Both the position numbers and the translations under genes were made by a program. 55,924 bases of DNA, from positions 1 to 55,924 of the IMG/VR virus record IMGVR_UViG_3300037246_000792. One strand, written 5' to 3'. This DNA comes from a virus. Within the stretch, counting starts at the first letter, position 1; each line of letters opens with the position of its first letter. The notes beneath the pieces are model-generated. The model was not told the origin of the DNA. It ran no database searches and saw only the letters and a program-made list of their open reading frames with translations. Shown here piece after piece: positions 4,831 through 40,502 of the stretch.

Positions 4831-4865
4831 CATGCTCGCCAGGCTGACACACCTGGCTTGAGCTG

Positions 4866-4903
4866 AGGGGGCTGGTTGGTTCCTGTTCACCACCCAGCCC
4901 CCT
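4866..4903 (+). terminator. Strong GC hairpin after capsid gene, possible terminator
   Basis: AGGGGGCTGG (4866-4875) pairs perfectly with CCAGCCCCCT (4894-4903), and the stem can extend inward by 4 pairs with one mismatch. It lies in the 136-base gap after the capsid gene. No T run follows, so it may be a processing or mRNA-stability hairpin rather than an intrinsic terminator. A related hairpin follows the sheath gene. Confidence 0.5.
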
Positions 4904-4966
4904 CCAGAACCCACACCAAGGGGCCTAGCTGCCCCGCAGAAGGCTCAGAGGCCCTGGAGGCATACG

Positions 4967-5485
4967 ATGGCAAGGTTGGTTGAGATTCGATCGCTCAAGC
5001 CCTTCAAGGGGCCAAGGAGCCGCAAAGTGATGCCGGGTGAGGAGGTGCTTTGTCAGGAGAACTTTGCAGCCTGCAAGGTGCGGGCTCGTCAGGCTGAGTA
5101 TACGGCCGGTGGTCCACCTCCGACGATTCCACGCAGGGTCAGCGGTGTGCCTCGCCGGAGTGGTGGGATGCTGGTCGCGCCAGTGAACCCAGACAAGCGG
5201 CCTGTGCCCAAGCCCAAGAGACCAATCGGTCCTGATGAGACCAAGGTCATTGAGCCTGAGGAGCAGAAGGGCCAGGGCCATTGGGGTCCTGATGACAAGC
5301 CGGTTGAGACTGCACCAGGCGGGCCCACCGACAACAAGGCCAGCCACGGCCAGAACGATGGCAACGACGCCAAGGGCAAGCTGCTGGATGCTCTGGATGC
5401 TGCTGGTGTTGATGGCTATGACCGTCGGTTCTCTGTTCAGAAGCTGCAAGAGGCGCTTGAGGAGGCAGCTGGTGGCAACGGTTAG
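4967..5485 (+). CDS. Hypothetical protein after the capsid gene, 172 aa
   Basis: GGAGG lies 7 bases before the ATG. The N-terminal 50 residues look folded; the middle (about 50-130) is proline, glycine and charge-rich and probably disordered; a short C-terminal helix (FSVQKLQEALEEA) ends the protein. Position between capsid and connector genes suggests a virion or head-completion role. I do not recognise the family. Confidence 0.78.
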   Translation: MARLVEIRSLKPFKGPRSRKVMPGEEVLCQENFAACKVRARQAEYTAGGPPPTIPRRVSGVPRRSGGMLVAPVNPDKRPVPKPKRPIGPDETKVIEPEEQKGQGHWGPDDKPVETAPGGPTDNKASHGQNDGNDAKGKLLDALDAAGVDGYDRRFSVQKLQEALEEAAGGNG

Positions 5486-25254: not shown

Positions 25255-25357
25255 TGCAACCAGCCGTCTGTTCTTCGGCCGTCAGTTGATAGAATCGAGC
25301 ACAATCAAGACCAGCATGAGGGCGGCCAATGGGTCGCCTTCATGCGTTGGAGGTAGA

Positions 25358-25831
25358 GTGATCAAATCAATCCTAGTCCTTGTGATGCTCCTACATCATG
25401 GCGCACCTGCTGACCTAGCAGTGGCCACCGTCGGCGCAGCTGCTGTGCATGATGTAGAGGTGCAGCACCTTGGCGGCTTCCTGATCGTTGGCCATCCTGG
25501 TGCCAGGTACTCAGGTCGCTGTGGTGACTACGTGAATGGTCGCGGGACGACATGTGGGCCCTACCGTTTGGCTGAGCTTTGGCCCATGACATTTGGCTAC
25601 GAGCTCGCCGATCGTGATCGTCCATGGCCAGCGTCTGCCATGGCTGCTAGGCTGCTCAGATACAGCCAGCAGAAGCATGAGCGATGCGACACTCAACACG
25701 ACTGGCGTGCACACATGCGGTCACGTGATCGCGACAGTGTACGTGCAGCTTGGAAGGTGAGGCGCAGTCACATGGCAGAGTTGGCTGTATGCCCACAGCC
25801 TTGGTGCTCCATTGCCACCTACCTACCATGA
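25358..25831 (+). CDS. Exported Cys-containing protein of unknown function
   Basis: 157 aa from GTG 25358, which follows GGAGG with good spacing. VIKSILVLVMLLHHGAP looks like a signal peptide or membrane anchor. The mature part has Cys in SGRCGDYVNGRGTTCGPYRL and WP...YELADRDRPWPASAMA, then a helical region with ERCDTQHDW, and a late VCPQPWC. Cys pairs suggest disulfides in the periplasm. The GPYRLAELWP segment resembles muramidase or transglycosylase-type motifs only weakly. It is the last gene of the late unit, before a large hairpin. Confidence 0.6.
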   Translation: MIKSILVLVMLLHHGAPADLAVATVGAAAVHDVEVQHLGGFLIVGHPGARYSGRCGDYVNGRGTTCGPYRLAELWPMTFGYELADRDRPWPASAMAARLLRYSQQKHERCDTQHDWRAHMRSRDRDSVRAAWKVRRSHMAELAVCPQPWCSIATYLP

Positions 25832-25955
25832 CCTACCTATACCTACCTACCTGATCTCACTTACCTAGATCACTACTCAGTAGGTAACTCAGTAGCTTCT
25901 GCCTACCTAGCTACATGCCTACTCAGTTAGTTACCTACCTACTCATACAGCTACC
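25817..25955. repeat. YACCTAC-rich low-complexity tract
   Basis: About 140 bases dominated by CCTAC/TACCTA units, beginning in the last codons of the preceding gene. It contains the inverted repeat TTACCTA (25861-25867) / TAGGTAA (25881-25887), an inner CTAC/GTAG hairpin (25873-25883) and ACTCAGT repeats. No gene is visible. The pattern looks like iteron-type protein binding sites, for example of a replication origin or transcription switch between late and early regions. Confidence 0.6.
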
Positions 25956-25970
25956 CTGGAGCCCAGAGCA

Positions 25971-26027
25971 GGTGCAGCCCACCCAGCCCCTAAAACTCAT
26001 TCGGAGTTTAAGGTCTGGGTCTGCACC
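25971..26027 (+). terminator. Large hairpin after the late operon, probable terminator
   Basis: GGTGCAG (25971-25977) pairs with CTGCACC (26021-26027), CCCAG with CTGGG, and the tip AAACTC (25993-25998) with GAGTTT (26004-26009) around an ATTCG loop. The stem has a 4-base bulge and small mismatches. Only GTTCTT follows, so the T run is weak. It closes the late transcription unit and separates it from the control region; its near symmetry could also stop leftward RNA. Confidence 0.6.
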
Positions 26028-26448
26028 GTTCTTGCGTCGGAGGTGGCTTTTCTCTGCCACCCTGTCTGCCCGTCGCTAGCGCCTTTGGTTCCTTGCCTCG
26101 TGACTTGTCAGGTCATGAGACCCAGCGCGCAGTCCTCAGTTCGCCCTTGCGCGGCACTCTCTGGAAGCCCCCCTGGTGAGTGCGAGCACCCATACGGGTG
26201 CGCTCTGGACCCAGGGTACACTAGACCGACCATCCAAAGCCTGGCCACCGTAGGCCCATCGCTGAGATACAGCAACCTCGGTTTTCCAAACGTCAAGAAC
26301 CGTGCCAATAAAAATGCAAAGTGAGGGTTAAAAGACAGCAAATAGTGGGTGAAATAAGGGGACGTCAAGAGCCGTGCCAGAAAATAAATTATCTTGCCCA
26401 GCCGCGAAGGGCCCTAGAGGCCGCTCAAAACGTTTCGAGTTTCAGCCC
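26028..26448. promoter_or_regulatory. AT-rich control region with a pair of direct repeats
   Basis: No convincing gene in these 420 bases. ACGTCAAGAACCGTGCCAAT with AAAAAT after it (26290-26315) recurs as ACGTCAAGAGCCGTGCCAGA with AAATAAAT after it (26362-26389), 72 bases apart. Both copies end in an A/T stretch, in the most AT-rich part of the window (about 26270-26400). These may be repressor, activator or origin sites upstream of the early genes. No promoter can be named with certainty. Confidence 0.5.
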
Positions 26449-26676
26449 ATGTCGCAGTATGGGGTGGGGTGCTCTGACGATTGTTCAGTGGTGATCGGTG
26501 CCCTAGGGCAGCATCAAAACACGTGCCACGTTTGCGAGGGGTCCGCGTGCATAAAATGCTTGGACGATTGGCGCTTGAGGTGCTGCTATGGATGCACAAA
26601 TAAATCGTACATCGTGCACAGTTTTTTTGTTGACCCTGCACAAAATATCTGTAGGGTGAGGGTCCAGGTTGATTAG
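26449..26676 (+). CDS. Possible Cys-rich zinc protein, 75 aa
   Basis: From ATG 26449 (a GTG at 26374 would lengthen it). The core CHVCEGSACIKCLDDWRLRC with CYGC after it has RING-like spacing of Cys pairs. Codon use is less GC-biased than in neighbouring genes and no strong ribosome-binding site is seen, so it may be a recent import or not coding. The many other Cys-ribbon proteins of this phage make it credible. Confidence 0.35.
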   Translation: MSQYGVGCSDDCSVVIGALGQHQNTCHVCEGSACIKCLDDWRLRCCYGCTNKSYIVHSFFVDPAQNICRVRVQVD

Positions 26677-26898: not shown

Positions 26899-26969
26899 GC
26901 GTGGTCAGAGTCACACACAATCAACGAGTGACGCAGGCTGAGGGCTGGGTTCAATTCCTGGCACACGCA
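26899..26969 (+). ncRNA. Degenerate tRNA-like element A
   Basis: T-arm like segment CTGGG-TTCAATT-CCTGG (26945-26961) with GU pairs, followed by CACACGC, whose last five bases pair with GCGTG at 26899. A GTCAC/GTGAC arm lies between. No canonical D or anticodon arm exists. It is the weakest of four such elements and is followed directly by the structured RNA at 26970. Confidence 0.35.
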
Positions 26970-27108
26970 TTGCTCAGCCCTAGGCTGATGGTCGGTGTGT
27001 GGATACAGCGCATCGCAACTGGTTGATCCTGGAGATGGTGCATCAGGTAGAGTGCATCACGTGTGGCCAGGCAGGCAGCGTGAGTCCAGAGGCCGCGGGG
27101 CTGAGCAA
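26970..27108 (+). ncRNA. Structured RNA 1, closed by TTGCTCAGCCC/GGGCTGAGCAA
   Basis: TTGCTCAGCCC (26970-26980) pairs perfectly with GGGCTGAGCAA (27098-27108), enclosing about 117 bases without a gene. The left strand can instead form a local hairpin CAGCC-CTA-GGCTG (26975-26987), so the closing stem could switch. The interior has GGTAGAGTGC and repeated GTGCATCA. The TGCTCAGC/GCTGAGCA core is shared with structured RNA 2 at 28365. It lies 40 bases before the start of the next gene, in the position of a 5' leader. Confidence 0.55.
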
Positions 27109-27148
27109 GTCAATCCGATAACAGGTCAACATCCAACAGGAGACCACA

Positions 27149-27352
27149 ATGTACGTAAGTCAATACACCAAGAACGTAATCGCTGACATGACCGACGATC
27201 ACATCCGTGCGATGCAGGCTGAGGCGCGTGAGCATGGCGATGAGGAGATGGAGGGTCTGTGTGATTGGGCCCTGCAGGGCGACGAGGCGGCGCGCTTCAT
27301 CGTCGGTCGCGCCCTCGCAGATGCACGCGCCATGGATGACGACGATAGTTGA
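27149..27352 (+). CDS. Small acidic early protein, 67 aa
   Basis: AACAGGAGACCAC precedes the ATG. All-helical and acidic (MTDDHIRAMQAEAREHGDEE, CDWALQGDEAARFIVGRAL), ending in DDDDS. No family recognised. It is preceded by the leader ATAACAGGTCAACATCCAAC that recurs before the gene at 27525. Such small acidic early proteins often bind host enzymes, but nothing here shows a target. Confidence 0.75.
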   Translation: MYVSQYTKNVIADMTDDHIRAMQAEAREHGDEEMEGLCDWALQGDEAARFIVGRALADARAMDDDDS

Positions 27353-27524
27353 GGTGATGCCGTTATTGTTCGCGGCATCAGGGGTGGGCTCAATCCCTGC
27401 AGAGATAGACGGTGCGACGCCACTGGCACTGCAATTGAGCCACGGTGGCAATCCGGTCCGGCGTGGGTGTTGTGCCCTGCGCCGGGCCACCACATAACAG
27501 GCCAACACCCAACAGGAGGCCATG
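27353..27524 (+). promoter_or_regulatory. Structured 5' leader of the gene at 27525
   Basis: This 172-base gap holds three stems: TGATGCCG/CGGCATCA (27355-27380), CCAC-TGGC/GCCA-GTGG (about 27419-27447), and GGTCCGGCG (27455-27463) with CGCCGGGCC (27480-27488), nine pairs with one GU. It ends in ATAACAGGCCAACACCCAAC (27494-27513) and AGGAGG, matching the leader of the gene at 27149 with the same 31-base spacing to the start codon. A 46-aa reading frame from 27357 covers the region but overlaps the stems. Confidence 0.5.
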
Positions 27525-27812
27525 ATGAGTGACCAGACAACAGACGCAGTCCGCACCGAGCGCCGCCGAGTGAGACGCAGCCAAGTCGCCAACCTGCAGC
27601 GGATGAACGGCGTGCTGACTGAGGGGCTGGGTATCGCAATCTACCTGGAGGCTCGCTATCAGATGGCAGTGGCAACGTACGGTCCACAGGTGCGGAGGGT
27701 CACGATCCTCGCAGATGAGCGGCGCTCCTATGGCCCTGCTCACGTGGCTATCGGCGTCTGGGTGGAGTCAGGCGCAGCCAGGACGTGGAAGCGCTCACAG
27801 GGGGATGCCTGA
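27525..27812 (+). CDS. Hypothetical early protein, 95 aa
   Basis: Start at the second of two tandem ATGs, 5 bases after AGGAGG and with the same leader spacing as the gene at 27149. N-terminus is basic (RTERRRVRRSQVANLQR), then helical, with a C-terminal beta half (AVATYGPQVRRVTILADE, HVAIGVWVESG). Possibly nucleic-acid binding. Overlaps the following gene by 8 bases. Confidence 0.72.
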   Translation: MSDQTTDAVRTERRRVRRSQVANLQRMNGVLTEGLGIAIYLEARYQMAVATYGPQVRRVTILADERRSYGPAHVAIGVWVESGAARTWKRSQGDA

Positions 27813-28203
27813 TACGGCTCCCACTGTTGACCGTATCCTGGTGACGCAGCCACGTGAGCAGTGTTGGGCTGAGCTGGATGGTGTGCTGTGGAATGTTCAC
27901 GCATACCCAATCGGCAAGGATGGGCAGCTTTGTTTTGCCCCTGCTTTCGATCGTGACCATTGGGAATGTGAGATGAGGTGGCGCGCTGGTGACGATGGCC
28001 CGCGTGACCCTGATGAGGCTGAGCGGGTGGCCATGCTTGAAGTGCTGGCAGATGAGGGCTGGACGGGTCGGCGCAATTGGCATGGGATACCGTGCGGCAA
28101 GTGTGGCGGTGATGGCTCTGCGCAGGATGAGGCTGATGAGTTCGTCTGTCGTGTGTGTTGTGGTGGAGGCATCAAGGTTGATGAGCACGGGCCTCAGGGA
28201 TGA
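27805..28203 (+). CDS. Early protein with DnaJ-like zinc knuckles, 132 aa
   Basis: From ATG 27805 after GGGG. The N-terminal domain (CWAELDGVLWNVHAYPIGKD) is not recognised. The C-terminus has CGKCGGDGSAQ and CRVCCGGG, the CxxCxG pairs of a DnaJ-type zinc finger. Such fingers bind unfolded protein or RNA. Its end is followed by 313 bases of non-coding, structured DNA. Confidence 0.75.
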   Translation: MPDTAPTVDRILVTQPREQCWAELDGVLWNVHAYPIGKDGQLCFAPAFDRDHWECEMRWRAGDDGPRDPDEAERVAMLEVLADEGWTGRRNWHGIPCGKCGGDGSAQDEADEFVCRVCCGGGIKVDEHGPQG

Positions 28204-28245
28204 GGCCAAGGCAGGATGGTGCTCAGTGCGGTGGTGGACGACACA

Positions 28246-28284
28246 CTTGCCAAGGCTGGCAAGGGCAGGGCTCAAGGCCTTGCC
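28246..28284 (+). promoter_or_regulatory. Two mutually exclusive hairpins
   Basis: CTTGCCA (28246-28252) pairs with TGGCAAG (28257-28263), while GGCAAGG (28258-28264) also pairs with CCTTGCC (28278-28284). The strands overlap, so only one stem can form at a time. The second contains the palindrome CAAGGCCTTG. This is the form of a switch or attenuator, but no ligand or terminator is apparent. Confidence 0.4.
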
Positions 28285-28291
28285 GCCGCAA

Positions 28292-28349
28292 TTCGGGGCC
28301 AAGGGTTGGAAGGGTGCACCCAGCTGGGTTCAAATCCCAGCCCCCGAAA
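28292..28349 (+). ncRNA. tRNA-like mini-cloverleaf B, 58 bases
   Basis: TTCGGGG (28292-28298) pairs with CCCCGAA (28342-28348), followed by an A. Inside lie CCAA-GGG-TTGG, the short arm GGGTGCACCC, and a perfect T-arm GCTGGG-TTCAAAT-CCCAGC (28323-28341). All four stems of a cloverleaf are present but the D and anticodon positions hold tiny hairpins, so there is no anticodon loop. It cannot be a normal tRNA. It precedes structured RNA 2 by 16 bases. Confidence 0.55.
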
Positions 28350-28364
28350 GCATTTCTTAGATCG

Positions 28365-28484
28365 TGCTCAGCTCAAGGCAGCGGTTGACTAGGCCCTCAG
28401 TCCAGGAGGGTTCTGGCAATCGGTGATGCTATGTGTTTGCCAGCGCATTGCCCATCGGGGTTGGCCGCTGTCTTGAGCTGAGCA
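28365..28484 (+). ncRNA. Structured RNA 2, closed by a 20-bp stem
   Basis: A 20-base strand at 28365-28384 (TGCTCAGCTCAAGGCAGCGG) pairs with 28465-28484 along its whole length, with a single GU pair. Inside are CCCTC-AGTCCAG-GAGGG, a five-pair stem with seven-base loop that looks like an anticodon arm, and CTGGCAA/TTGCCAG. No gene fits. It ends 33 bases before the helicase start and shares the TGCTCAGC/GCTGAGCA helix with structured RNA 1. Long near-perfect pairing in an intergenic leader argues for selection on RNA structure. Confidence 0.7.
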
Positions 28485-28516: not shown

Positions 28517-30205
28517 GTGAGAACAGGGACAATCAGTGAGCAGATCGATGGGACGACAACCGTGCAGGTGGTGGAGCAAGCAGGTGAGCTGGACGTGTTG
28601 CGTGCACAGCTGAGCCAGGCACGTGCAGAGGTGGGCTCTGCTGCGCCCCTCAGGCCGTTCACCTACCGTGGTGAGCTGCTACCGTTTGAGCCGTCCAGCT
28701 ATCAGCAGGCGGTGATTGATGAGGTGCTGGATGGCTCTGGTGACATCGTGGTCAACGCGGTTGCAGGTAGCGGCAAGACTGCAACGCTGGAGCTGCTGGC
28801 CAGATACATCAAAAGCAAGGCGATGTTCGTCGCGTTCAACGCGCACATCGCCAAGGAGCTGAACGCCAAACTCAAGCCCTACGGCATGAGCGCACGGACG
28901 TTGCACTCCGTTGGCTTCGGTGCTCTGCGCTACAAGTTCAAGTTCAGCACCAAGCCTGAGCCTTCTAAGTACCGGAGATTGGCGCGTGAGATACAGGACG
29001 ATATTGCGAGGTGTAGCGCTGTCAACGGTGTCAGGCTGAGCAGCAGTCTGTGTAGCCTGCTGGCCACTGAGTACCCGCTGGGTGAGCTGTTGCAGCTGGT
29101 GGGTCACCTACGCACCACACTGGCTGAGGTGGTTGACAGGCCCACCGTGATGGCATTGGCCAACCAATACGCCATCGGTGTGGAGCCAGGCATGATGGTG
29201 TTCTATGTGCAGGCTCTGCGGTACATGCTCAAGAGAGGGGCAGCGGAGATTGCTGAGGGCCTGGTGGACTTCACCGATATGATCTGGGGCCCGTGGGTCC
29301 ACAACTGCAAACCGTTTCAGCTCAGCTGGGTCCTGGTGGACGAGGCACAGGATCTCAACCCTGCTCAGTTGGATCTGGCCATGCGCTGCAGGTATCGCAA
29401 CGGGCGCATGCTGTTTGTGGGTGACAGGTCACAGGCTATCTACGGGTTCGCCGGTGCCATGGCTGACGGCATTGATCAGATCGTTGAGGCGACCGGTGCC
29501 AAGGAGCTGCCACTGAGTACCTGCTACCGCTGCCCTACCACGCACCTGGAGTTGGCACGTGAGATCGTGCCACAGATTGAGGCTGCACCTGGTGCGCGTC
29601 AGGGTGTGATTGGTGGGTGCAGTGAAGAACAGGTGATGGAGGTGGTTGCACCTGGTGACATTGTGTTGTGTCGCACCACTGCTCCTCTCATCAAGTTGTG
29701 CTTTGCACTCCTCTTGGCTGGCGTGTCAGCGCGAGTCCGTGGCCGCAAGATCGGTGAGGCGTTGGTGGCATTGATCGAGCGACTGGCGAAGCGCAGAGCG
29801 TTCAAATACGCGGAGATGGATAGGGCGGTTGCTCTCTGGCTGAAGCGTGAGAGTGCCAAGGTGCTCAGGCGTAACGGTGGTGACCTGGAGGATAGCCAGC
29901 TCCAGGGACTGCAGGACAGGGCTGACACGGTGATGGCGCTGTGGAGTGGCAGCGATGCCACATCGATTGCTGGCTTGACTCAGGACATCGAAGGATTGTT
30001 CTCAAACGATCGCCCCAGTGTCTGGCTGAGCACGGTGCATCGAGCCAAGGGGCTGGAGGCTGAGGTGGTCTATATTCTGCGGCCGGACCTGATGCCGTTG
30101 CCATTCGCTAGGAAGGGATGGCAGGTGCAACAGGAATACAACTTGCTGTATGTGGCTCTGACACGCGCCAAGCGGGCGCTGGTGATGGTGGAGGGTTCAG
30201 CATGA
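28517..30205 (+). CDS. UvrD/Rep-like superfamily 1 DNA helicase
   Basis: 562 aa, GTG start 6 bases after ATAGGAGG. Motif I is NAVAGSGKTATLE (K87), motif II VLVDEAQD (D275, E276), motif III FVGDRSQAIYGFAGA, motif IV LSTCYRCP, motif V/VI VWLSTVHRAKGLEAEVVY and LLYVALTRAKRALVMVE. The first 65 residues are an extra helical segment. It is an ATP-driven 3'-5' DNA translocase, here probably for replication restart or recombination with the nuclease and Sak4 genes downstream. It is not a DnaB-type helicase. Expression may depend on the structured leader. Confidence 0.92.
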   Translation: MRTGTISEQIDGTTTVQVVEQAGELDVLRAQLSQARAEVGSAAPLRPFTYRGELLPFEPSSYQQAVIDEVLDGSGDIVVNAVAGSGKTATLELLARYIKSKAMFVAFNAHIAKELNAKLKPYGMSARTLHSVGFGALRYKFKFSTKPEPSKYRRLAREIQDDIARCSAVNGVRLSSSLCSLLATEYPLGELLQLVGHLRTTLAEVVDRPTVMALANQYAIGVEPGMMVFYVQALRYMLKRGAAEIAEGLVDFTDMIWGPWVHNCKPFQLSWVLVDEAQDLNPAQLDLAMRCRYRNGRMLFVGDRSQAIYGFAGAMADGIDQIVEATGAKELPLSTCYRCPTTHLELAREIVPQIEAAPGARQGVIGGCSEEQVMEVVAPGDIVLCRTTAPLIKLCFALLLAGVSARVRGRKIGEALVALIERLAKRRAFKYAEMDRAVALWLKRESAKVLRRNGGDLEDSQLQGLQDRADTVMALWSGSDATSIAGLTQDIEGLFSNDRPSVWLSTVHRAKGLEAEVVYILRPDLMPLPFARKGWQVQQEYNLLYVALTRAKRALVMVEGSA

Positions 30206-30591: not shown

Positions 30592-32001
30592 ATGGCAAAG
30601 GCAAAGAGCGTTGATGTGGCTGAGATGACACCGGCTGAGAAGAATGAGTTGTTGGAGCGGCTGGCTGAGGACATGGCTGAGGCTGCTGCTGACTGCAATG
30701 GGTCGCTGGTGCAGGCTCACTTTGAGGATGGTGACGAGGCTGCTGATACGCGTGACCGTCAGCGGACGCACAAGAAGGCGCACAAGTTGGCGCTTGAGAT
30801 CCTCAAGAGCGCAGAGCAGGAGATGGTTGACGCCATCATGGCGCGGTGTCCCTACCACGCCGATGACGTCAAGGTGCGCACAGTAACCATCACGCTGGGA
30901 CAGCTGGTGGATCGGCTGGAGAGTGGGGCAGTGGACATGGCACCGCCCTATCAGCGCAATGCTGACTTGTGGAGTAGCGCCAAGGTCTCGCAACTGTTCG
31001 AGTCGATGATCCTGAGACTTCCGATCCCTGTGTTCTACGTCCACGAGAAGGGTGATGTGTGGGCGATCGTCGATGGGCTGCAGCGTTGCGGCGGCATCAA
31101 TCGTGTCTGCATCGGTGGCATGAAGCTTCGCGGTATGGAGTACCTGCAGGAGTTGAACGGCAAGAAGCTGGCCGACCTGCCTTCCAGTCTCAAACGTCGC
31201 ATCGATGAGACGCAACTGACATTCCACGTGGTTGAAGAGTCGACACCCATCGAGGTGGTTTACAACCTGTTCAGCCGCATCAACACAGGGGGCATGAAGC
31301 TGAGTGCTCAGGAGCTTCGCAACGCGTTGCACCAGGGTCCGGCCATCGACGCCTTGCACGCCATGACGGACGACCAAGACTGGATGGCATGCACGGAAAG
31401 CAGCATCAGCGGCAAGCGCCAAGTCGACATGGAGTTTGCCCTGCGATGGTACGCTTTCGCGCGCCATGGAGCTGGTGCACTCAGGGAGTACAAGAGCAGC
31501 GACATGAACGGCTGGCTCAATGGCGCCATGGATGCGCTCAATGGCGAGGCTGACATTGAGCAGATCCGATCGGAGTGGAGTGACACCATGCAGCTGGCAT
31601 TCGCGATCTGGCAGGAGGATGCGTTCCGCAAGCCAGTCAATGAGGATGGCGACGGCAAACGCACTGGCGTCAACAAGGCGCTGTTTGACTCCATCGGCTG
31701 GGCTCTGCATCTGATCGCCATGTCTTGGCGCATCCAGGGGGGCAAGGCCATTGACGTGCTACTGGAGTCCATGGCCGAGCAGGCTGATCAGATCAAGGCG
31801 GAGTTCTTGGCATCCATGGAGGATGATGAAGAGTACATGGCCAGCATCACGCACAGCACGCGTGACAGGAAAGCGGTTGTCAAGCGCTTCAGCGTGGCTC
31901 TGAGGGTCTTGGTGAACAGCTGCGTTGATGTGGGTGATGATCTGGTGGAGAGAGTGCGGAAGTACACCACCGATGATGGTACGGTGGTTGAGCTGTTCTA
32001 G
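30592..32001 (+). CDS. DUF262 (GmrS/ParB-like) domain protein
   Basis: 469 aa. A helical N-terminal extension (1-100) with KKAHKLALEILKSAEQEM, then a DUF262 domain: APPYQRNADLWSS, LFESMILRLPIPVFYVHEKG, AIVDGLQRCGGINR, then NGKKLADLPSSLKRRI and LFSRINTGGMKLSAQELRNA. In full GmrSD enzymes this domain hydrolyses nucleotides and partners a C-terminal HNH nuclease; here the C-terminal half is helical without an HNH motif. In a phage it could exclude competitors, counter type IV restriction, or act on nucleotides. Function unproven; domain call firm. Confidence 0.85.
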   Translation: MAKAKSVDVAEMTPAEKNELLERLAEDMAEAAADCNGSLVQAHFEDGDEAADTRDRQRTHKKAHKLALEILKSAEQEMVDAIMARCPYHADDVKVRTVTITLGQLVDRLESGAVDMAPPYQRNADLWSSAKVSQLFESMILRLPIPVFYVHEKGDVWAIVDGLQRCGGINRVCIGGMKLRGMEYLQELNGKKLADLPSSLKRRIDETQLTFHVVEESTPIEVVYNLFSRINTGGMKLSAQELRNALHQGPAIDALHAMTDDQDWMACTESSISGKRQVDMEFALRWYAFARHGAGALREYKSSDMNGWLNGAMDALNGEADIEQIRSEWSDTMQLAFAIWQEDAFRKPVNEDGDGKRTGVNKALFDSIGWALHLIAMSWRIQGGKAIDVLLESMAEQADQIKAEFLASMEDDEEYMASITHSTRDRKAVVKRFSVALRVLVNSCVDVGDDLVERVRKYTTDDGTVVELF

Positions 32002-32227: not shown

Positions 32228-32300
32228 GCCAGCCGCTAGAGGGTGCGTTCCTTGCGCCTCAACGGTAGCAGAATCAGGGGTTCGATTCCCTTGGCTGGCT
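32228..32300 (+). ncRNA. tRNA-like element C, 73 bases
   Basis: GCCAGCC (32228-32234) pairs perfectly with GGCTGGC (32293-32299). T-arm AGGGG-TTCGATT-CCCTT (32276-32292) is canonical in form, and CCTCAACGGTAGC (32256-32268) looks like a tRNA D-arm, but it lies next to the T-arm. Between acceptor and this segment is a long arm GAGGGTGCG/TGCGCCTC in place of D and anticodon arms. There is no usable anticodon loop. It ends 24 bases before the next start codon. Confidence 0.55.
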
Positions 32301-35423: not shown

Positions 35424-35981
35424 ATGGGTAGAGGAGATTTTGATACAGGCGAGGACTATGACATCCAGATCAAGCCAGGTCGTCACCTGGTGCAGATCAC
35501 CAGGGCGGTGGTGGCAGAGTCCAAGAAAGGAAACGACATGATCAGCATGCGGATCCACGTCATCACTGGCCCTGCTGCTGGTGCGTGGTTCCGCGAGTGG
35601 ATCAGCCTGACCCCTGGGCGGAACGGCTACGGCAAGCTCCAGAAGGTCTGTCTGGCCCTGGGTGTCGTCGGGACTCGCAATGACGAGGCGGGGCTTGAGC
35701 CGCATGACCAGGCCAGCGTGCATCAGCACCTCCTGGGCAGGGTGTTGGTGTGCAATACGTCGGTCGAGAAAGGGGAGTGGAACGGCAAGGAGCGCACCCA
35801 GATCCGCGCCGATGGGTATGAGGCATTGCCCGTCAAGGCCGCAGAGGCACTCTTGCTCAAGCACGAGAGCGGCCAGCCCGCGCTTCCAGGCGATGCCTAT
35901 GAGGACTGGGAGGGCAACGATGTGCGACCCGTCGAGGGTGGCGGTGGGTTCTCTGGTGAGGGCGATGGGATTCCGTTCTAG
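35424..35981 (+). CDS. Single-stranded DNA-binding protein (DUF669-like)
   Basis: 185 aa, preceded by GAGAGGAGTGAGAG. N-terminal beta barrel with QIKPGRHLVQITRAVVAESK followed by ISMRIHVITGPAAGAWFREW, then KLQKVCLALGVVG. The C-terminus is acidic and ends GEGDGIPF, the IPF tip that SSBs use to recruit partners. Acts on replication and annealing intermediates with the Sak4-like protein. Confidence 0.87.
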   Translation: MGRGDFDTGEDYDIQIKPGRHLVQITRAVVAESKKGNDMISMRIHVITGPAAGAWFREWISLTPGRNGYGKLQKVCLALGVVGTRNDEAGLEPHDQASVHQHLLGRVLVCNTSVEKGEWNGKERTQIRADGYEALPVKAAEALLLKHESGQPALPGDAYEDWEGNDVRPVEGGGGFSGEGDGIPF

Positions 35982-38793: not shown

Positions 38794-39054
38794 TGGCGCC
38801 TGGTGTGCCACCTAAGGGCGAGCAGGGTTGACGCGCCTTGGTGTGCGTCTGGATGGTCTGTGAGCCCACAGGGGCTGAGCTAGGCCCTGCTGGATAGGTG
38901 TTGACGCGTCTGGCTTGTGTCTGCTACTTCTTGACTTGTGCGGCTCGTTGGTCTGGCGGTTGGCCCCCTGACTCCTGACTGGCGAGTCGCGCACCCACTG
39001 TCAAGGGTGACATTGGTGGCACAACGCAGAGAAGCTCCAGGTGACGGACCTTGC
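38794..39054 (+). promoter_or_regulatory. Gap before csrA with repeated TTGACGCG boxes
   Basis: No gene is evident in these 261 bases. GTTGACGCG occurs at 38827 and 38900, and TTGACTTG follows at 38931; each resembles a bacterial -35 hexamer (TTGACA). Matching -10 hexamers are poor (for example TACTTC after the second). A GGCC-rich stem (AGGGGCTGAGC...GGCCCTGCT) also lies here. A promoter for the csrA-resolvase unit is plausible but not proved. Confidence 0.35.
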
Positions 39055-39207
39055 ATGGTGATACACCGCAAGGTGGGTCAGCACCTGGTGTTGATGACTC
39101 CTGACGGCAAGGTATCAGTCACGATTCATGAGGTGACTGACCTGGATGGTGTGCGCCTGCTGGTCAAGGCACCGCGCAAGGTGCGGGTGTTGCGTGAGCC
39201 AAGATAA
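39055..39207 (+). CDS. csrA: CsrA/RsmA-family RNA-binding regulator
   Basis: 50 aa. VIHRKVGQHLVL, VSVTIHEVTDLDGVRLLVKA and APRKVRVLRE follow the CsrA order (R-K/R-V-G-E..., V-V-x-V..., G-V-R-I-G-I-x-A-P, V-x-V-x-R-E). The key RNA-contact arginine near the end is R47 (E. coli R44). Compared with bacterial CsrA the first strand is one residue short and the E after VG is Q. CsrA dimers bind GGA in hairpin loops or Shine-Dalgarno sequences and block or stabilise mRNAs. In this phage almost every gene has GGAGG before it, so self or host messages are possible targets. Confidence 0.85.
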   Translation: MVIHRKVGQHLVLMTPDGKVSVTIHEVTDLDGVRLLVKAPRKVRVLREPR

Positions 39208-40428: not shown

Positions 40429-40502
40429 ACGCTTGGCAGCCAATGGGCTGGGCTTTGCCGTTGGGAAGGGCAGAGCGGCTGGTTCGATTCCGGTCAAGCG
40501 TG
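40429..40502 (+). ncRNA. tRNA-like cloverleaf D, 74 bases
   Basis: Perfect acceptor ACGCTTG (40429-40435) with CAAGCGT (40495-40501). D-arm AGCC-AATG-GGCT (40438-40449). An eight-pair central arm GCTTTGCC/GGCAGAGC (40452-40459, 40469-40476) with loop GTTGGGAAG replaces the anticodon arm. T-arm GCTGG-TTCGATT-CCGGT (40478-40494) is canonical. There is no seven-base anticodon loop and no variable region, so it is unlikely to decode. It lies wholly between two genes and ends 13 bases before the start of the small terminase candidate. Confidence 0.65.

Follow-up and report, generated by a model that had tools for sequence, protein, structure and literature searches.

In the early region of phage T7, RNase III sites lie between early genes, with hairpins just upstream of genes, and mitochondria punctuate their transcripts with tRNAs. 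RNase P and tRNase Z act on the t-elements of haloarchaea, one of which sets the 5′ end of 5S rRNA (PMC4326828). In murine gammaherpesvirus 68, the TMER RNAs consist of a tRNA-like unit followed by a hairpin, the two being parted by RNase Z (PMC3482243). The C4 antisense RNA of phages P1 and P7 is cited in PMC11143913 as a non-tRNA substrate of RNase P. Further, 5′ hairpins can stabilize mRNA in E. coli and Bacillus (PMC3997798). Here we describe a phage genome in which tRNA-like elements directly precede a hairpin, a ribosome-binding site or both.

The window, by which we mean the whole 55.9-kb phage record, carries a terminal direct repeat of 127 nt, and its proteins (sheath, tape measure, baseplate, portal, capsid and terminase) are those of a contractile-tailed phage. 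Every gene called across the window with a simple codon model lies on the + strand. The structured leaders lie where the rightward replication module begins; there, small genes without an assigned function, at 27149, 27525 and 27805, are followed by a gene for a UvrD-like helicase at 28517 (Table 1). A candidate promoter for the rightward early operon, picked out by eye and missed by a sigma-70 scan, is only a lead.

Other features of the genome are recorded here in their own right. The gene-poor 1.4 kb between the tail and early modules (25255–26650) contains CCTACCTA-type repeats (25820–25945) and A/T-rich stretches, and is a possible origin or regulatory region. An early gene at 30592–32001 encodes a GmrSD_N (DUF262-type) domain, whose family is known elsewhere for restricting modified DNA. 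The gap at 38794–39093 in the early operon is strongly structured (z = −3.5) and has no tRNA-like element. Behind the major capsid gene, the gap at 4831–4975 contains the inverted repeat GAGGGGGCTGG/CCAGCCCCCTC and is, on the − strand, the second most over-stable window of the genome.

Table 1. Positions of the leaders, tRNA-like elements and neighbouring features in the phage record
Feature	Start	End	Strand	Description
Candidate promoter of the rightward early operon (only a lead)	26629	26656	+	TTGACC, 16 nt, TAGGGT; by eye
Element 1	26899	26969	+	T-arm GCTGGG-TTCAATT-CCTGGC (26944–26962); partial 5-bp acceptor GCGTG/CACGC
Hairpin A	26970	27108	+	Closed by TTGCTCAGCCC/GGGCTGAGCAA
Leader A with ribosome-binding site	27119	27148	+	ATAACAGGTCAACATCCAACAGGAGACC; resembles leaders B (p < 0.001) and C (p = 0.006)
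67-aa gene behind hairpin A	27149	27352	+	No family match
Leader B (third intergenic leader)	27353	27524	+	Weak structure only (z = −1.5)
Element 2 (63 nt)	28228	28290	+	7-bp outer stem; two or three inner stems
Element 3 (~56 nt)	28293	28349	+	6-bp acceptor TCGGGG/CCCCGA on 6-bp T-arm GCTGGG-TTCAAAT-CCCAGC
Hairpin C	28362	28487	+	~25-bp unbroken helix; three-way junction with two inner hairpins
Leader C with ribosome-binding site	28493	28516	+	CCCAACAACCAATAGGAGGGG
UvrD-like superfamily I helicase gene behind hairpin C	28517	30205	+	
Element 4 (73 nt)	32228	32300	+	Perfect 7-bp acceptor; T-arm AGGGG-TTCGATT-CCCTT
Element 5, full cloverleaf, tRNA-Pro(GGG)	40428	40503	+	ARAGORN; RF00005, 30.4 bits against a gathering score of 29

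The T-arms upstream of the hairpins belong to larger tRNA-like elements. Scanning for a T-arm joined to a 7-bp acceptor gave four matches scoring at least 10 (28228–28290, 28293–28348, 32228–32300 and 40429–40502); shuffled genomes averaged 0.25. Each of the four falls in a sense-strand gap, gaps accounting for 10% of the genome. A control scan of six phages and four other contigs returned mostly genuine tRNAs, along with a few coding-sequence matches at 9.6–10.6; because the latter reach these scores, the two matches at 10.0 and 10.2 in our phage depend no less on position and folding than on score.

Element 5 is the sole tRNA called by ARAGORN and is marginal: it alone passes the threshold of the tRNA model RF00005, narrowly, whereas elements 1–4 do not; its 4-nt D-loop lacks GG, and a G–G mismatch lies beside the anticodon loop. 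Its stems form with a probability of at least 0.88 in context, and the start codon of the gene for the small terminase subunit (40515) follows 12 nt downstream. A usable anticodon loop is found only here; elements 2 and 3, at 63 and 56 nt, are too short to hold a D-arm as well as an anticodon arm with a 7-nt loop and U33. Element 3, too short for a tRNA, has two tiny inner hairpins and no anticodon arm; both of its stems reach ~0.99 when it is folded in the full 313-nt gap, and 12 nt separate it from the start of hairpin C. Element 4 lacks a normal anticodon arm, lies 23 nt upstream of the next start codon (gene 32324) and folds well alone but poorly in a long context. Element 1 ends directly at the start of hairpin A, with no spacer, and its folding is weak, the partition function giving 0.01–0.26 for the T-arm and 0.01–0.80 for the acceptor, depending on context. 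The fold of element 2 has a z-score of −4.1, and its presumed T-loop, CTCAAGG, is mostly paired in the minimum-energy fold; a loop that is probably paired makes this element a doubtful tRNA mimic. Acceptor and T stems that stack to ~12 bp with a T-loop are therefore present, as drawn, in elements 3, 4 and 5, absent from element 1 and doubtful in element 2, and the stacked stems are stable in context in elements 3 and 5 only.

Several familiar RNA classes were considered and set aside. ARAGORN called no tmRNA, permuted or not, and, with introns allowed, just one implausible 1.6-kb case; no T-box was matched in Rfam; and an attP site at a tRNA 3′ end was rejected, no integrase being found among the scanned ORFs, which included nearly all large ones. 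Neither hairpin matched an Rfam family at gathering or relaxed thresholds. In other phages, we noted an unannotated 67–69-nt tRNA-like cloverleaf with an incomplete anticodon loop in Salinibacter virus M31CR41-3 (35631–35699), between the SSB gene and the next gene, and, by a relaxed ARAGORN scan, a tRNA-Trp-like sequence in Xanthomonas phage DIBBI (2083–2155), beside normal tRNAs and absent from the annotation of the record.

The structure ahead of the helicase gene, hairpin C, is strongly supported as real and beyond chance. The pairing put forward in a preliminary description of this DNA, TGCTCAGCTCAAGGCAGCGG at 28365–28384 with 28465–28484 through one G–U pair, is correct, as are the 80-nt spacer and the 32-nt distance to the start codon, and the helix extends inward to ~25 bp through further G–U pairs. 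Folded in 550 nt of context, this helix has a pair probability of 0.96. The fold has a z-score of −5.9 and ranks first among 5,580 windows of 130 nt, taken on both strands, for over-stability corrected for G+C content. One inner hairpin (28392–28412; CCCTC-AGTCCAG-GAGGG) had been likened to an anticodon arm; it does have a 7-nt loop, but lacks U33.

Hairpin A, ahead of the 67-aa gene, is not by itself above chance. Its proposed closing helix exists, with TTGCTCAGCCC (26970–26980) and GGGCTGAGCAA (27098–27108) forming 11 perfect base pairs plus one T–G pair around a 117-nt spacer, 40 nt from the start codon as had been given, and has a probability of 0.96–0.99 when folded in context. Helices of at least 11 bp nevertheless number 15 in the genome against 7–16 in shuffles, which places this one within chance, and the fold z-score of about −2.8 was obtained at the hairpin's own chosen borders. 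What makes hairpin A credible is its likeness to hairpin C in helix core, T-arm and leader.

This likeness, also part of the preliminary description, holds at each of the three places. The 8-bp outer core common to the closing helices of A and C arises in 6 of 20,000 shuffles of leader A (p ~3 × 10⁻⁴). The T-arms ahead of both hairpins (26944–26962 and 28323–28341) are real and mutually alike (p < 0.001); canonical T-arms with every pair formed number just four in the window, each in a gap on the + strand, and these are two of them. The ribosome-binding leaders A and C are likewise similar (p = 0.006), and leader B, ahead of gene 27525, has 28 nt of ribosome-binding leader in common with A but not the TGCTCAGC helix. 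The interiors of hairpins A and C are not alike (p = 0.2). The shared T-arm, outer 8 bp and leader thus argue weakly for the suggestion that the two copies form an RNA family, and with unrelated interiors they do not establish it. As for the roles proposed for them, cis leader or small RNA, the structured leaders beside tRNA-like elements are there, and a separate small RNA fits less well than a cis leader: each hairpin lies 32–40 nt from a start codon, and a scan of these leaders detected no intrinsic-terminator-like site.

From the sequences, their predicted pairing, their positions and their excess over chance, we infer transcription as one unit, cleavage and protection, and tentatively favour reading these regions as cis-acting RNA-processing leaders, each a tRNA-like cut site followed by a protective 5′ hairpin. 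One long rightward transcript would span the leaders. The T-arm stacked on the acceptor stem, ~12 bp in all, would be presented to host tRNA-maturation nucleases, with RNase P acting 5′ and RNase Z 3′ of the tRNA-like element, and the polycistronic RNA would be cut there. After the cut, the downstream message would begin at or near the stable hairpin, which, placed 32–40 nt before the start codon and with the ribosome-binding leader behind it, would guard the new 5′-monophosphate end against 5′-end-dependent decay. Genes 32324 and 40515 have the tRNA-like element immediately next to the ribosome-binding site, and no hairpin would be needed there.

Several observations favour these processing leaders. 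First, all called genes share one strand. Second, four tRNA-like matches occur where 0.25 are expected, all in sense-strand gaps, and the elements directly precede a hairpin, a ribosome-binding site or both. Third, folding in context gives high pair probabilities for elements 3 and 5 and for the closing helices of A and C. Fourth, there are precedents in the haloarchaeal t-elements (PMC4326828) and in mRNA-stabilizing 5′ hairpins (PMC3997798). Against this reading stand the poor acceptor of element 1, the instability of element 4 in a long context and the probable lack of a true T-loop in element 2. Further, hairpin C begins 12 nt, not 0 nt, past element 3, and the T-arm-like sequence of leader B, before gene 27525, has no acceptor.

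RNase III cuts long duplexes of about two helical turns, and hairpin C offers a long unbroken helix of roughly that length directly upstream of a start codon. The nearest rival explanation is accordingly that RNase III cuts helix C and, less clearly, hairpin A, separating the messages, while the tRNA-like stems would be either coincidental or degenerate tRNA genes. We consider this unlikely: hairpin A has just 11–12 unbroken pairs, and the presence of tRNA-like elements in front of four or five genes would be left unexplained. Cutting of helix C by RNase III would nonetheless be compatible with the processing leaders, as it fits the same general purpose.

The put RNAs of phage HK022 are cis-acting antiterminator RNAs, and the start of an early operon, with two copies in one operon and structured RNA near ribosome-binding sites, is a setting that would suit either a cis antiterminator or other polymerase-modifying leader, or a site for a phage RNA-binding protein controlling translation. 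An RNA bound by protein or polymerase should keep its loops, however, and the interiors of A and C are unrelated (p = 0.2); convincing intrinsic terminators, moreover, were not found in the region scanned, which counts against antitermination. We judge this explanation decidedly unlikely.

The same unrelated interiors would suit decayed or divergent phage tRNA genes lying beside an unrelated strong hairpin, the likeness being left over from a local duplication and serving no function today. Element 5 still scores above the tRNA model threshold (30.4 bits), and odd tRNA-like genes occur in other phages, such as the 67–69-nt one of Salinibacter virus M31CR41-3. Decay would not, however, keep hairpin C as the most over-stable window or element 3 intact in both stems, and we find this account improbable. 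Least probable is a trans-acting small RNA of ~120–200 nt, freed by tRNA-type processing as TMER RNAs are and sharing their part order of a tRNA-like unit and then a hairpin (PMC3482243), since it would have no defined 3′ end, neither a terminator nor a second tRNA-like element being found behind the hairpin, and the leader continues straight into the ribosome-binding site.

Relatives of the leaders were sought in two ways. The pattern of TGCTCAGC, spacer, GCTGAGCA and leader recurred in IMG/VR only in an essentially identical sister contig (dataset 3300043173) and was absent from 84,980 GTDB species genomes. Searches with the helicase, terminase, GmrSD-like protein, sheath, Sak4 and capsid returned identical sister contigs or proteins of 27–41% identity without the leaders, and these six proteins led to no phage close enough for alignable leaders; blastn gave no match to known phages. 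The nearest non-phage helicases, at 41% identity, come from Chloroflexi MAGs and are apparently chromosomal, without such a leader; this likeness is a weak hint to the host. The arrangement is an observation from one genome, and the processing mechanism is plausible but unproven.

A broader form of the processing reading, which we hold to be somewhat unlikely, is that truncated tRNA mimics punctuate the polycistronic transcript of the phage, with host RNase P and RNase Z freeing the messages and hairpins standing behind the cut where needed. If cleavage were shown, this would be a phage case of mRNA 'tRNA punctuation', and minimal tRNA mimics, overlooked by tRNA finders, could be RNA-processing signals in phage operons. 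The search recipe would then be T-arm plus acceptor stems in sense-strand gaps.

The leaders can be set against the known systems one by one. The T7 sites are not known to have a tRNA-like partner, and the helix in our phage is longer and closes a junction. Element 2 resembles mascRNA and menRNA (RF01684) in aligning over the entire short cloverleaf model, but its 17.3 bits are far under the gathering score of 42.5. As with C4, the leaders would be a phage RNA that is a putative non-tRNA substrate of RNase P; unlike C4, an antisense regulator, they match no Rfam family at threshold. They share with stabilizers of the ompA/papA type a stable 5′ hairpin before a ribosome-binding site (PMC3997798), with the difference that those start at a promoter, whereas the 5′ end in the phage would come from cutting. 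Like the TMERs, they place a hairpin immediately 3′ of a viral tRNA-like unit; the TMERs are Pol III genes yielding microRNAs, whereas the phage leaders imply no eukaryotic promoter or free small RNA. Finally, as in the t-elements of Haloferax volcanii, a tRNA-like stem that is not a tRNA lies directly upstream of another RNA (PMC4326828); there it is found in an archaeal chromosome before 5S rRNA, and here in a phage, before mRNA hairpins and genes, with cleavage as the prediction.
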